Source of the DNA: Pontiellaceae bacterium
GTDB taxonomy: Bacteria; Verrucomicrobiota; Kiritimatiellia; Kiritimatiellales; Pontiellaceae
DNA length: 64,000 nucleotides
Direction: 5' to 3'
NCBI GenBank assembly: GCA_016937945.1
Contig: JAFGVP010000076.1
Span: 1-64,000, forward strand
A model generated the notes under the pieces. That model was not told the origin of the DNA. It saw only the letters and a program-made list of their open reading frames with translations, and did no database searches. This document shows, piece after piece, positions 7,408-51,095 of the stretch. The translations under genes were made by a program, and so were the position numbers. Numbering within the stretch: the stretch's first letter is position 1; every line of letters starts with the position of its first letter.

Positions 7408-8787
7408 ATGAAAATCGTTTACTCACTGTTGTTATCTCTCTTCGCCGTCAGCGCCATGGCGCAGATGGAGGATATTCAGGGCAAGCTCGAGAGCAGCCTC
7501 ACGGAGCTCTCGAATGTCCGCGAACAGATTGCCAATGAAAAGCTGCCTATGGTCAAGGGGCTCAACGCGCTGGAAGACGAGCTGCTGGATATCCGGCTGG
7601 AACACCAGAAGGTCATGCGCCAGCTCGACAGCCGCAACCTCGACCTCAACAATCTCCGATCGGAAATCAATTCGCGCAAAGGCGAGAAAAGCTATGTAAG
7701 CAATCTGCTCGGCGAATATATCCGCAACTTTGAAACCCGCCTGCATGTGGCCGAGCTGGATGAATATAAGGAGTCCCTCGATGCCGCCAAGCTGGCGCCG
7801 GAAAACAGCAATCTTTCCGATGAGGAAATCTTTGTCCAGCAGACCCTGATGGTGGATGAATCGATCCAGCGCCTGAAGGCGGCTGTGGGCGGTTCCATGC
7901 TTAACGGTACGGCGGCCGGCGAAGATGGCCTGGTCAAGGACGGGCGCTTTATCCTGCTCGGACCGATTGCACTCTTCTCCTCCTCCGATGGGTCGATGGC
8001 CGGCATTGCCGAACAGCAGATCGGTACGCTGGAGCCGACGGTGATGGGATTCGCCGACCCGGCCAATGCCGAGCTGATTCGTTCGCTGGTTGCCGCCGGA
8101 CAGGGGCGCTTCCCGTTTGATCCGAGTCTGGGCAACGCCCGCAAGATTGAAGAGACCCGTGAAACCTTCAAGGAGCATATCCGGAAGGGCGGCATGGTGG
8201 CCTATGTGATTGTCGGCATGTTTGTGCTCTGCATGGCGATCGCCATCTACAAATGGATACGCCTGATCATCATTCCGATGCCTTCCGAAAAGGATGTGCA
8301 TCCGGTGCTCGACGCCGTACTGCGTAAGGATCACGACAAAGCCGTCGCGGCAGTCGGCAAGCTCAAGGGGCCGACCGCCGCCATGCTTAAATCCGGTCTG
8401 GAACACATTTCCGAGCCGAAGGATCTGGTGGAAGAGGTGATGTATGAAGAGATGCTCACCACGAAAATGAGCGTGAACAAGCTGACACCGTTCCTTGCGG
8501 TGTGTGCTTCGACGGCGCCGCTCATGGGGCTGCTCGGTACCGTGACCGGTATTATCAACACCTTCAAGCTCATCACCGTATTCGGTTCCGGCGACGTAAA
8601 GACGCTTTCCGGCGGTATTTCCGAAGCGCTGATCACTACGGAGCTTGGGCTGGTGGTCGCCATTTCGGCGCTCGTGCTCTACGCCTTCCTGTCGCGCAAG
8701 GCCAAGAGCATTACCGACAACATGGAGCAGGTGGCCATCCTGTTTATCAATCGCGTAACACGGTCGGAGGAAGCGGCCCGCACCTAG
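7408..8787 (+). CDS. TtpC-like MotA/TolQ/ExbB protein
   Basis: This is a long ExbB relative of 459 residues. It has a signal peptide (1-19, ending AMAQ) and a periplasmic coiled-coil domain of about 230 residues. A first transmembrane helix follows near residue 265 (MVAYVIVGMFVLCMAIAIY). The TolQ/ExbB core comes next, with 'APLMGLLGTVTGIINTF' near residue 370 and a last transmembrane helix (LVVAISALVLYAFLS). This architecture matches TtpC, the extra component of Vibrio TonB2 systems, which couples the proton-driven ExbB/ExbD complex to the outer-membrane receptor. It is followed by a normal short ExbB, as in TonB2 loci. Confidence 0.88.
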   Translation: MKIVYSLLLSLFAVSAMAQMEDIQGKLESSLTELSNVREQIANEKLPMVKGLNALEDELLDIRLEHQKVMRQLDSRNLDLNNLRSEINSRKGEKSYVSNLLGEYIRNFETRLHVAELDEYKESLDAAKLAPENSNLSDEEIFVQQTLMVDESIQRLKAAVGGSMLNGTAAGEDGLVKDGRFILLGPIALFSSSDGSMAGIAEQQIGTLEPTVMGFADPANAELIRSLVAAGQGRFPFDPSLGNARKIEETRETFKEHIRKGGMVAYVIVGMFVLCMAIAIYKWIRLIIIPMPSEKDVHPVLDAVLRKDHDKAVAAVGKLKGPTAAMLKSGLEHISEPKDLVEEVMYEEMLTTKMSVNKLTPFLAVCASTAPLMGLLGTVTGIINTFKLITVFGSGDVKTLSGGISEALITTELGLVVAISALVLYAFLSRKAKSITDNMEQVAILFINRVTRSEEAART

Positions 8788-46621: not shown

Positions 46622-47457
46622 TGTGCACCGGTTGCCTGTTTCATAATGCGCGAAAAATCCTGAAGTGTCCGGATCAGGTTGCCGGGGCTGGGAATACAGG
46701 TGTGGGGGCCGTCCAGAATATACACGTGATCATTCCGGACGGCATCGATGGTGTCCACGCTCTGCCAGTTGTTCCCCGGGCTGCCGGTGGTGAGCTCAAT
46801 GATGACTTCCGGGTTGATGCGGAGCAGGCCCTCGCGCGAAAGCATGATGGAGGGCCGCCGGTCGGAAACCACATTAGCTCCTCCCGCCAGCATAAGGAGT
46901 TCGGAATGGATACAGTCCGATCCCATCGCATAGAGCTGTTCGATCCGGCCGGATCCCGAAAAATCGCCGAACACAATCAGGGTGCGGGGATGTTCAGCAA
47001 GCTCGCTTTCGTCACATTTCAGCTCCGCGTTAAACTGAGCGATCAGTTCGTCTGCCTGCTTGGATGTGCCGCAGGCATCCCCGATGGCCCGCACCGATGC
47101 CAGAATGTCGCTGAGTGTCAGGCTTCCGGTTTCGAGGTATGGAATGCCCAGCGATTCAAGCCGGCTCTTCTGGACATCGGCGCTGCGTTCGAGAATAACC
47201 AGATCGGGACGAAGGGCGACCACCTGCTCATAGTTGAGATTGAGGAAATCTCCGACGATCGGAATTGCGCCGGTTCTGTCCTCCGGGCTGAAGCTCGATA
47301 TCCCGACCAGCCGCTCTTCAAGATGCATGTCGTGGAGAGTTGCGGTAATATTCGGGGCGGTGGAAATAATCCGCTGCGGAACGTCCGTAGTCGGTGCCGG
47401 CGGTTTTCCGCATCCTGCGATCCAGAGGAAAAGAAGTGGAATAAGACGTTTAATCAT
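46618..47457 (-). CDS. btuF: Periplasmic vitamin B12-binding lipoprotein
   Basis: This 279-residue substrate-binding protein has a lipobox (IAGC, residues 13-16), so it is membrane-tethered. The class III binding protein fold is visible: PQRIISTAPNITATLHDMHLEERLVGIS (in part), the YEQVVALRPDLVILE block and the long linking helix. It delivers cobalamin to BtuCD. Position between tonB and btuD supports the assignment. Confidence 0.88.
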   Translation of the reverse strand: MIKRLIPLLFLWIAGCGKPPAPTTDVPQRIISTAPNITATLHDMHLEERLVGISSFSPEDRTGAIPIVGDFLNLNYEQVVALRPDLVILERSADVQKSRLESLGIPYLETGSLTLSDILASVRAIGDACGTSKQADELIAQFNAELKCDESELAEHPRTLIVFGDFSGSGRIEQLYAMGSDCIHSELLMLAGGANVVSDRRPSIMLSREGLLRINPEVIIELTTGSPGNNWQSVDTIDAVRNDHVYILDGPHTCIPSPGNLIRTLQDFSRIMKQATGAQ

Positions 47458-48109
47458 CGGTAAGCCTAAAGGTGCAGGAGATTTCTGTGTCGGATTCGAC
47501 CGCTTGTCCCTGCAGGGTGGCCGGTGTAAAGATGGCCTGTCGGATTTCTTTCAGGGCAGACTCATCGAGCCGGCGGAATCCGCTCGATTTGATAACGGTC
47601 GTGCTCCCGACCGATCCGTCTGTCAGGACATGTACTGAGAGGATCACCGTTCCCTGCTCGCCGCGCCGCCGGGAAATACGCGGATAGGCGGGTTTGAAAA
47701 CGCCGGTAATAAAAGTTTCAGAGGAAATCCCTTTGCTTGGTTCCATGGAGGCATCCTGGGCCGGCGGCGCCGGAGTCGATTCCGGTTGTACGGGTTCTGC
47801 TTCCGGAGCCGGGGTTGGTGCAACGGATTCCTCTGGCCGTTTGATCGGCTTCGGGATATCAATCGGTTTGAGCTGCTGCGTCGCTTCAATGATCGGTTCC
47901 GGTTCAGGACGCGGGGTATTGATCGGTTCGGGTTTCGGGGTCGGGGAAGGAACGAGGGTCAGCTGCACCACGGTTTTTCCCTCATCAATCCGAAGGGCCG
48001 CCGGCGCCGGCGCCAGCCCGTGCCGTCCCATCACGAAGGCATGGACCGCAACCGAGAGCAGCAGTGCCGGCAGAATCGGCTGAAAAACTATGGAGCGGAT
48101 GTCCTGCAT
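47450..48109 (-). CDS. tonB: TonB of the cobalamin operon
   Basis: This 219-residue TonB has an N-terminal membrane anchor (about 10-28) and a Pro/Glu-rich spacer (PEPINTPRPEPEP...). The C-terminal TonB domain has YPRISRRRGEQGTVILSVHV and FRRLDESALKEIRQAIF. It differs from the TonB at 9845. It overlaps btuF by 8 nt and exbD by 22 nt, so it should be dedicated to BtuB. Confidence 0.9.
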   Translation of the reverse strand: MQDIRSIVFQPILPALLLSVAVHAFVMGRHGLAPAPAALRIDEGKTVVQLTLVPSPTPKPEPINTPRPEPEPIIEATQQLKPIDIPKPIKRPEESVAPTPAPEAEPVQPESTPAPPAQDASMEPSKGISSETFITGVFKPAYPRISRRRGEQGTVILSVHVLTDGSVGSTTVIKSSGFRRLDESALKEIRQAIFTPATLQGQAVESDTEISCTFRLTDD

Positions 48110-48495
48110 GAAAACGAAACTTCCTCGATTCCCTCTTTTTTCAGCTGATCAAGCAACCGGATGGCCAGGCCCAGATCTGCCGTCTGATCGCCGTTGATAA
48201 ACACCGGGCGGGCGGAGTCGCCCCGAAGTGCGCGGATCAGGTTCGGAAGTTCTTCGAAGACCACTTCCGTTTCATCCAGATAGATCCGGTTTCCGGCATC
48301 GATTGTAATGGTGATGTGCTCCGCCTGATCAAGGCCGGCCGTACCTGCTGCCGGAAGCTCTACCTTGAGTCCGTGATGAACCACCATGGAAAGCATGGCG
48401 TAAATAAAAAATACGAGCAGCAGGAATACGACATCGATAAGTGGAAGCATTTCCACCCGCGCCTTCTTCGTTTCATATCCGCAGCTCAGTTTCAT
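48088..48495 (-). CDS. exbD: ExbD of the cobalamin operon
   Basis: This 135-residue protein starts at ATG 48495 (MKLSCGYETKKARVEMLPLID). The single transmembrane helix carries the essential Asp in MLPLIDVVFLLLVFFIYAML. The periplasmic domain ends EGIEEVSFSCRTSAP. A longer open frame extends upstream toward exbB without a stop, but no similarity or binding site supports it as translated sequence. Confidence 0.9.
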   Translation of the reverse strand: MKLSCGYETKKARVEMLPLIDVVFLLLVFFIYAMLSMVVHHGLKVELPAAGTAGLDQAEHITITIDAGNRIYLDETEVVFEELPNLIRALRGDSARPVFINGDQTADLGLAIRLLDQLKKEGIEEVSFSCRTSAP

Positions 48496-48568
48496 GGTTG
48501 TTAGACAGGCATTTGGCACCTGGCGTGAGGCACTGGTGAAATGCTTAGCTGGTCCTCTAAATCGGGGT

Positions 48569-48588
48569 TCATCTTGTTTATCTCTGGG
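48569..48588. repeat. Second dispersed CAGAGATAAACA-type repeat
   Basis: On the minus strand this reads CCCAGAGATAAACAAGATGA, a near copy of the element at 37319-37340. It sits in the 112-nt gap that separates exbB from exbD, which are otherwise normally adjacent, so the gap probably grew by insertion of this element. Confidence 0.45.
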
Positions 48589-48605
48589 TGACAAAAAATC
48601 ATTAT

Positions 48606-48630
48606 GCCTATTGCCTATTGCCTATTGCCT
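48606..48630 (-). repeat. Heptanucleotide tandem repeat at exbB stop
   Basis: Three GCAATAG units (minus strand) and a partial fourth lie across the last codons and the stop codon of exbB. The stop TAG is formed inside the third unit. Confidence 0.8.
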
Positions 48631-49228
48631 CTGTTCCCTTCTGAACGGTGACCTCGTAGCAGGTGATGAGCTGTTCGAGATAGCGGGTGACCTTTTCCAC
48701 TTTGCGGGTGAGTGCGTTGTAAGGAAGCAGGGCGACGATGGCGATCGCGAGTCCGGCGGCGGTGGTGAGCAGGGCCTGGGCAATGCCGCCTGTCACCGCT
48801 TTGGGGTTTTCGATGCCGGCGGTGCCCAGCAGGTCGAACGAGACGATGATGCCGGAAACGGTTCCAAGGATGCCGAGCAGCGGGGCCAGCGTGATGATCG
48901 TGTCGAGTACCGACAGGTAACGCTTCATCTTTTCGATCTCGTGCATGGCGGCGGCTTCGAGCGATTGGACCAGTCCATAGTTCCGGTGCGCGAGTCCCGA
49001 GGTGAGAATCCGGCAGACGAGGCAGCTGGATGCCTCGCCTTCCGCAATCGCCGCATCAAAGTCGCCGCGTTCCGTCAGCGTAAAGATCCGGTTAACCAGT
49101 TTCTGGTCCTTGCGAATGGAGACCATAATCCAGAACAGAATCCGTTCAGCCGCCACGGCAAGGGCGACCACGGAGCAGGCCAGCAACGGCCACATGACCG
49201 GTCCGCCCTTTATCATTAAGTCATACAT
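48608..49228 (-). CDS. exbB: ExbB of the cobalamin operon
   Basis: This 206-residue MotA/TolQ/ExbB protein has three transmembrane helices (residues about 12-32, 'TLAPLLGILGTVSGIIVSFDLL' near 110-132, and ITTAAGLAIAIVALLPYN-like near 155-175). The start MYDLMIKGGPVMWPLL matches small ExbB forms. It is 67 nt downstream of btuB. Its C-terminus (AIGNRQ) is coded by a heptanucleotide repeat. Confidence 0.9.
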   Translation of the reverse strand: MYDLMIKGGPVMWPLLACSVVALAVAAERILFWIMVSIRKDQKLVNRIFTLTERGDFDAAIAEGEASSCLVCRILTSGLAHRNYGLVQSLEAAAMHEIEKMKRYLSVLDTIITLAPLLGILGTVSGIIVSFDLLGTAGIENPKAVTGGIAQALLTTAAGLAIAIVALLPYNALTRKVEKVTRYLEQLITCYEVTVQKGTEAIGNRQ

Positions 49229-49295: not shown

Positions 49296-51095
49296 TTATA
49301 GGTTCATGCGAATGCCGGCGTAGGCGGACAGATCGTCCGTATTGTATCCGGCGACGGTTTCATAATCCTCATCCAGCAGGTTTTCAATCCGGCCGTAGAT
49401 TTCGATCCGGTCATTCAGCTGATAGCGCGCCGCAAGTCCGAGAAGGATGTATCCGTCCATCGTCGCACCGCCGATATCGTCGCGCGGTCCAACGCCGTTT
49501 GCATGAAGGTTGATGTTCAGCTTATCGCAGGCTGCATAATTGATGCTTCCGTCCACCTGATGCTGCGGGCGCTTGAGGTGGAAGGATCCGCCGGTAATGT
49601 CGTCGTTGTCAAGATAGGTGTAGGCCACGCGCATGGACACATCTTCGGTCAGGCGGGCGTTTCCGTAGACTTCAACGCCTTCTGTCGAGGCTTTCGCAAT
49701 ATTGCCGTAGGTCCATGAGACAAAGTCATAGGCGATCATGTTGTCATAATCGGTGTTGAAATAGGTGGCTCCGACATCGACCCGGTTGGAGATAATCTGC
49801 TGCTCAACGCCGACTTCCCATCCTTCGCTCTCTTCCGGGGCCAGGTTCGGATTGCCGAACGAAGCAAACAGCTGGTACGAGATCGGCGCTTTGAATCCCG
49901 TGCTGTAGGAGGCTTTAAGCCGTGTGCCGGTTGCATTGATCGCATACGCCGTGGATGCCTGATAGGTGGTTTCTCCGTCAAACTCGCTGTGTTCGTCATG
50001 ACGAATGCCCAGATTGGCCATCCACTGCTCGGTAATGAATGCCTGATACGATCCAAAGGCTCCGACGTTATAGAGGCTGTCGTCAATTGCTCCGAAGCCT
50101 TCATCAAAGAAAAAGTCATCGAACGATCCGTCAACGCCGATCAGCAGGGTGTGGTTATCGTGCAGGTAAATTGTATTGGCCCAGTCAGCCGAGAGCGTGT
50201 CCGCATTGTAAATGCCGGAAAATCCGAGTTCCTCGCGGTCCAGCATGAGGTAGCCGATTCCTGCCGTGGATTCCACCAGATCATTCGCCAGCATGATCGT
50301 GGTTTCGGCGCGGGTGATGAGCTGTTCCGTGTTGTAGTTATACAGGCTGTGGGCCGTTCCGAAACCGTCATCATAATCGGACGTGGCGTCGATATAGCGC
50401 AGCGTCAGCGTCAGATCGGCATAGTCGGTCGGCATAATCCCGATGCGGGTGGCAACCGTGGTGTTGACCGTGCCGTCCTTTTCCATGTTGTTTTTCAGGG
50501 CCGACTGACCCTGCCGGTCAAAGTGCGAGATCGAGGCACTGTAGTTCATGCGTGCATCGCCGCCGTTAATGCCGGTGGCCGCCAGCCATGTGCCGTAGGA
50601 GCCGCCTTCAACGCGATAGTAGGGCGCCGGCGCGCCGGACCCTTTCTTGGTGACAATGTTAATAATGCCGGCCATGGCATCGGAGCCGTACAGCGGGCTG
50701 CTCGGTCCCTTGATCACTTCGATGCGCTCAATGTCGAGCATCTGTAGATTGGCCATGTCATAGCCGGAAAGATCCAGCTGGCCGTTCATGCGCACGCCGT
50801 CGATCAGGATCTGCGTGTGCTGCGGATTGGCGCCGCGCAGATAGATCTGGGTCGCCTGGCCCGGTCCGCCTGAGCGCGAGACGGAGATGCCGGGAAGGCT
50901 TTGAAGCTGTTCGGTAAAGGCGGTTCCGGCGCCGTTTTCGATGGTTTCGCTGTCGATGACTGCCGCTGAAACCGTCAGCTGGTTGACCGGCGTTTCAATC
51001 CGGGTGGCGGTGATGACGATTTCGTTGGTCGACGCGGCAAAAGCCGCAGCGGCTGCACTGGTCAAAAACGCAGTGGCAATGAAATGTTGCTTCAT
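49296..51095 (-). CDS. btuB: TonB-dependent vitamin B12 receptor
   Basis: This 599-residue outer-membrane receptor has a signal peptide (residues 1-20, ending AFAA). Its TonB box lies near residues 25-31 (NEIVITATR, the classic VTATR-type). The plug (about 35-150) has SLPGISVSRSGGPGQATQIYLRGA and the DAMAGIINIVTKKG end. A 22-strand barrel ends with an AYAGIRMNL-type terminal strand. The cobalamin riboswitch upstream and btuFDC downstream identify the ligand as cobalamin. Confidence 0.93.
   Translation of the reverse strand: MKQHFIATAFLTSAAAAAFAASTNEIVITATRIETPVNQLTVSAAVIDSETIENGAGTAFTEQLQSLPGISVSRSGGPGQATQIYLRGANPQHTQILIDGVRMNGQLDLSGYDMANLQMLDIERIEVIKGPSSPLYGSDAMAGIINIVTKKGSGAPAPYYRVEGGSYGTWLAATGINGGDARMNYSASISHFDRQGQSALKNNMEKDGTVNTTVATRIGIMPTDYADLTLTLRYIDATSDYDDGFGTAHSLYNYNTEQLITRAETTIMLANDLVESTAGIGYLMLDREELGFSGIYNADTLSADWANTIYLHDNHTLLIGVDGSFDDFFFDEGFGAIDDSLYNVGAFGSYQAFITEQWMANLGIRHDEHSEFDGETTYQASTAYAINATGTRLKASYSTGFKAPISYQLFASFGNPNLAPEESEGWEVGVEQQIISNRVDVGATYFNTDYDNMIAYDFVSWTYGNIAKASTEGVEVYGNARLTEDVSMRVAYTYLDNDDITGGSFHLKRPQHQVDGSINYAACDKLNINLHANGVGPRDDIGGATMDGYILLGLAARYQLNDRIEIYGRIENLLDEDYETVAGYNTDDLSAYAGIRMNL

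Follow-up and report, generated by a model that had tools for sequence, protein, structure and literature searches.

In the intervening sequences known from 23S rRNA, the inverted ends of the insert pair with each other and the insert is cut out by RNase III. Genes for four-helix-bundle proteins of the S23p type are widespread, and are related to Avd, a protein of diversity-generating retroelements. To our knowledge S23p has no known function, and rRNA intervening sequences have been known for decades with no known way of moving. The 23S intervening sequence of Coxiella burnetii has S23p, terminal inverted repeats and, upstream of S23p, tandem heptamers, of which some strains have two copies and others three; in one strain there is a large deletion in the S23p gene (PMC4990558).

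The Coxiella intervening sequence is the closest known relative of the elements, located in operons, that are dealt with here. The likeness lies in the PF05635 protein of complete copies, in the terminal inverted repeats, in the tandem heptamers and in the decay of the gene. However, the operon elements, which are known here from sequence and predicted folds, lie between protein-coding genes and not in 23S rRNA, their heptamer is itself a different one, and the copy in the window (the whole 64,000-nt stretch of Pontiellaceae DNA that was analysed) has lost its gene. The operon elements are most likely an insertion of the intervening sequence kind at a different place and the window copy a relic of one.

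MITEs, REP/REPIN sequences and the Rickettsia palindromic elements likewise occur at many sites as short copies that have inverted ends and no gene, whereas the ends here consist of tandem heptamer arrays, the presumed parent has a four-helix-bundle gene, and no transposase partner turned up in the loci that were read. The TAACTGA repeats of Beggiatoaceae (PMC4679880) are, like the present arrays, intergenic tandem heptamers near start codons and occur in an overlapping set of phyla, but they are direct repeats of one heptamer, where here there is one per element, and they have no associated S23p gene; that paper makes no mention of S23 or of intervening sequences. Tandem 7-8-mers in Geobacter metallireducens resemble the arms of the present elements in forming short pairs on opposite strands at variable distance. 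In the available part of that study they are taken, differently, as binding sites of a global regulator and no link to S23p is drawn (PMC2700814). A search with partial coverage of the literature, and so weak as evidence, found no published description of operon versions of S23p elements, which are apparently a widespread, little-described family.

The gap between exbB and exbD

What separates exbB from exbD in the window is very probably the decayed remains, now without a gene, of a small insertion of the same kind as the 23S rRNA intervening sequence. It has two inverted arms (Table 1), of which the left is a perfect array: period 7, 26 nt in length and 100% identity between units. GGCAATAGGCAATAGGC is present at a single place in the 4.28-Mb genome when 0–1 mismatches are permitted in a genome-wide search, and the array is therefore beyond chance. 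(The genome is a draft of 183 contigs, from one assembly.) As an earlier note on this DNA had recognised, reading the unit as GCAATAG, the exbB stop lies inside the repeat: the protein ends ...GTEAIGNRQ, and its final codons and the TAG that follows them are within the array.

Table 1. Features of the exbB–exbD region, in window positions. The E-values of the two arms (nhmmer) are somewhat optimistic, because the 3′-arm profile was assembled manually from a selection of relatives.
Feature	Position	Strand	Description
TonB-dependent receptor gene, upstream of exbB	49296..51095	minus	TIGR01779 E 1.3e-86
exbB	48608..49228	minus	MotA/TolQ/ExbB family, 206 aa; PF01618 E 1.3e-30
Left arm	48605..48630	minus	tandem heptamer array GGCAATA x 3.7 (Tandem Repeats Finder); E 8.2e-7, plus-strand match
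Interior of element	48541..48604	minus	contains GAGATAAACAAGATGAACCCCGATTTAGAG (EINKMNPDLED); compared by eye with L226-L228
Right arm	48507..48540	minus	diverged inverted heptamer array TCACCAGTGCCTCACGCCAGGTGCCAAATGCCT; E 1.6e-5
exbD	48088..48495	minus	ExbD/TolR family, ATG at 48495; PF02472 E 8.1e-25
tonB-like gene	47450..48109	minus	overlaps the end of exbD; TIGR01352 E 1.9e-18

Evidence for the second arm comes from a profile of the 3′ arms of element ends in other species, which, when run against the whole 64-kb window with nhmmer, gave significant matches at the two arms only. The left arm is matched on the plus strand and the right arm on the minus strand; the two are therefore inverted, 64 nt apart. 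Inverted ends and tandem heptamers, the latter as in the Coxiella intervening sequence, are thus both present. The exbB–exbD gap contains no PF05635/TIGR02436 gene, and its location is between two protein genes and not in 23S rRNA. Because the four-helix-bundle gene is missing, the window copy is taken as a presumed deletion derivative and not as a full member; the interior peptide encoded by GAGATAAACAAGATGAACCCCGATTTAGAG is possibly a relic of the N-terminus of that gene, judged by resemblance. The units of the right array are degenerate, and the window copy is predicted to form a weak hairpin, with z −2.3 as against −4.9 to −8.3 for gene-less relatives (mononucleotide shuffles).

The gap had also been said to hold a dispersed repeat. 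At the level of exact matches this does not stand, as no 12-mer of it recurs in the window and CAGAGATAAACAAGATGAACC, its internal 21-mer, is nowhere else in the genome at up to 3 mismatches; at the level of the family it is right, because related elements occupy several sites in sister species. The whole gap sequence is found at one place only in a search of the genome. Around the gap nothing scored above the Rfam gathering score, the two weak matches being outside it and far under their cut-offs. No target-site duplication was identified, the empty exbB–exbD sites being too diverged to define one.

When one unit of the array is removed in silico, a stop-free frame of 377 aa results which enters exbD in phase at its ATG, with a predicted junction peptide that contains GNRHNDFLSPRDK. 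Removal of two units gives a protein that ends at 237 aa, and addition of one to three leaves the product unchanged. The earlier statements that loss of one unit joins the two frames and that extra units are harmless to the exbB stop are both borne out. However, when the gap is shuffled at constant composition, 14% of the shuffles have no stop across 37 codons, and about 5% pass once the phase is also required; an open in-phase gap is for this reason not beyond chance.

The receptor upstream of exbB is nearest to BtuB-type profiles, yet falls under their curated cut-offs. A second and distant ExbB/MotA-family gene is present at 8182-8775 (plus strand) of the window, within a 490-aa open frame, and is 32% identical to the first.

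Relatives in sister species and the orthologous junctions

With the gap DNA as query, its parts were found beside four-helix-bundle genes in sister species. Complete elements stand before dapA in three of these (L226 in G013, L227 in G020 and L228 in G041), with the layout AGGCANNAGGCANNAGG – four-helix-bundle gene – TCACTAGTGCCTNNTGCCTANTGCCT, and the protein from G013 is matched by PF05635 (E 1.7e-38), TIGR02436 (E 9.4e-37) and PDB 2gsc (5e-27). Gene-less copies with the same inverted arms are also present (L229-L232 and L241), and gene-less relatives fold into long predicted hairpins with z to −8.3, again relative to mononucleotide shuffles. The relatives of the element sit between protein genes.

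One gene-less heptamer element (L241, G013:C93:1300-3174, at about 1033-1108) is in frame within a Ser/Thr protein kinase gene, where it adds some 25 residues, without a stop, between KNIMISHGK and TVKVLDFGLA. Rickettsia palindromic elements similarly sit in frame inside genes. The Pontiellaceae genome itself has a four-helix-bundle gene (L239, G000:C112:2600-5100, at about 915-1470) with GATTGCCGATT-type repeats upstream and GGCAATC x 4 downstream; its anatomy is the same as that of the other elements, with a different heptamer.

Nineteen orthologous exbB–exbD junctions were read, the present one included, and none has a fused ExbB–ExbD. Eight are tight, with 2-16 nt from where the conserved part of exbB ends to exbD and mostly with overlapping genes (L011, L015, L019, L020, L022, L366, L367, L368), which upholds the earlier suggestion of an insertion in the present gap. 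L024 has 47 nt at this place, free of repeats. In a further five a GxxExxY (PDDEXK_3) gene stands between AACAGAATAAT and its complement (L014, L016, L017, L023, L021), and three have short repeat-like inserts (L012, L013, L018); in L012 and L021 the contig stops before exbD, exbB having its own stop. The L018 junction resembles a gene-less scar of a AACAGAATAAT-type GxxExxY insert (ATACAGAA..TTCTGTAT).

Heptamer arrays are found in the two that are left, the window copy (G000) and L025 (G013); the two share one heptamer and resemble each other at the 3′ end. The tree joins G013 with G018, a species that lacks the array, and places this pair far from G000 (100/100 support). Independent insertion in G013 and G000 would therefore be the simpler reading of these sequences, simpler than repeated loss.

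Alternative readings of the gap

Were the left array an ordinary heptamer microsatellite, it would have arisen by local slippage and the likeness of the right side to element ends would be due to chance. Heptanucleotide repeats are an abundant repeat class in many bacteria (PMC4679880), and in other phyla it is common for a heptamer array to have no four-helix-bundle gene near it. Such an origin is nevertheless improbable, as the right arm was found independently with a profile from other species (E 1.6e-5, somewhat optimistic), is inverted and is 64 nt from the left arm; this combination of arms is met again in G013, at the orthologous junction, and in gene-less copies at other places. The paired arrays might instead have been retained as a hairpin that, bound or processed there, determines the ratio of ExbB to ExbD, and consistent with this are the long predicted hairpins of gene-less relatives (z to −8.3), the strong sense orientation of the elements inside operons and the reading, in the part of the G. 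metallireducens study available, of opposite-strand paired tandem 7-8-mers as regulator sites (PMC2700814). A similar regulatory role has been proposed for the heptamer repeats of Beggiatoaceae (PMC4679880). For the present junction this is very unlikely: the fold of the window copy is weak, 8 of the 19 junctions are tight and the inserts in other relatives are quite different, so that a conserved role at exbBD is not visible.

The earlier note had gone on to propose a switch, in which replication slippage that loses one heptamer fuses ExbB to ExbD and cells alternate between separate and fused proteins. The C-terminus of ExbB and the N-terminus of ExbD are both cytoplasmic, and so the topology would permit a fusion. 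In silico the frames work out as stated, and contraction by one unit is in itself plausible by analogy, because Coxiella strains differ in whether their intervening sequence has two or three of its heptamers (PMC4990558). The proposal of a switch is nevertheless not supported and is very unlikely. An open gap in the required phase is expected in about 1 in 20 cases by chance; only the loss of exactly one unit fuses, since loss of two truncates and gains do nothing; and the array is short at 3.7 units. L025, the one further junction that holds an array, gives no fusion at any unit number tried, and 0 of 19 orthologous junctions are fused. The complex has the stoichiometry ExbB5-ExbD2, and a 1:1 fusion is therefore unlikely to be useful. 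Nothing indicates selection for the fusion.

If the gap is, as preferred here, a decayed element, the element would have been inserted in sense orientation into the tight exbB–exbD junction of this lineage, presumably arriving by movement, and would then have lost nearly all of its four-helix-bundle gene. The leftover would be the left array, from which exbB now takes its stop codon, the diverged right array and, between the two, some 64 nt of interior. The arms may pair in exbBD mRNA, and the remnant would now do little except keep exbB and exbD apart; it might make their translational coupling looser or provide a weak hairpin of the RNase III type. An ExbB–ExbD fusion by loss of one unit would be a possible rare accident and not a function.

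The flanks of four-helix-bundle genes

The anatomy of PF05635/TIGR02436 genes in general was assessed with 92 distinct genes from 40 genomes of the clade, taking 70 nt on each side. Self-match at lag 7 is 0.400 upstream and 0.403 downstream against about 0.27 in shuffled flanks (z 27 and 28; n=92), with no excess at lags of 4, 5 and 9-12 and a small excess only at 6 and 8. Control genes of the window (n=47) give 0.247 and 0.259 at lag 7. The two flanks of a gene are also inverted counterparts of each other: an upstream flank compared with the reverse complement of its own downstream flank scores 14.98, as against 8.02 on permutation (sd 0.25, maximum 9.07, 1000 permutations). The same holds for 24 genes of other phyla (lag-7 self-match 0.431 and 0.449, own-pair inverted score 22.8 against 9.5), in genomes that had been chosen for carrying GGCAATAG arrays. 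Where the direction of the neighbours is clear, they are co-directional with the four-helix-bundle gene in a ratio of 49:3 upstream and 46:4 downstream, and this sense orientation suggests a constraint at the level of RNA or selection against disturbance of operons.

The change of the two arms within subfamilies is concerted to a small extent (14.97 against 14.04; 12 of 2000 permutations). The matching of protein to heptamer across phyla is weak (rho 0.098, reached in 0 of 1000 permutations) and is not counted as evidence, because the genomes were picked for carrying GGCAATAG arrays and the sample is thus biased.

The association goes from gene to arrays and not from array to gene. In 77 of 80 loci with an exact array no four-helix-bundle gene was detected in the stretch around it, and so an array alone proves nothing; the GGCAATAG array was rejected as a marker of the gene, which is present in only 3 of the 80 exact-array stretches.

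In our judgement the chances are even that S23p genes define an extensive class of small elements which have spread among operon junctions in different bacterial phyla. Each such element would lie between inverted heptamer arrays of its own, recognised by the protein or by a partner of it, and would shrink to a gene-less hairpin; the rRNA intervening sequences would be one branch of the class. If S23p genes do as a rule sit in sense in operons between inverted heptamer arrays of their own, the rRNA cases would be part of a much larger family, and some of the heptamer repeats described from several groups of bacteria, so far without explanation, could have come from this source. Whether S23p binds its own heptamer array, and whether such stretches are excised from mRNA, are questions that would then be raised.

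Several subfamilies are found in different species at one kind of operon junction, for example before genes that, judged from their N-termini, are gltD-, fcl-, rfbA-, ruvB- and dapA-like; the first four kinds are those downstream at L041-L045, L048-L050, L053-L057 and L061. GGCAATAGGCAATAGGCAATAGGCA is present as an exact match in at least 120 stretches from many phyla, mostly with no four-helix-bundle gene in the stretch (L070-L149). GxxExxY (PDDEXK_3) genes (L306-L335) also have element-specific inverted repeats, the own-pair score being 13.97 against 8.31 on permutation (n=30); they are set apart, as the inverted ends are common to both but the 7-nt period is absent. Some of their flanks look like 9-mers, e.g. 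CACGAAATA.
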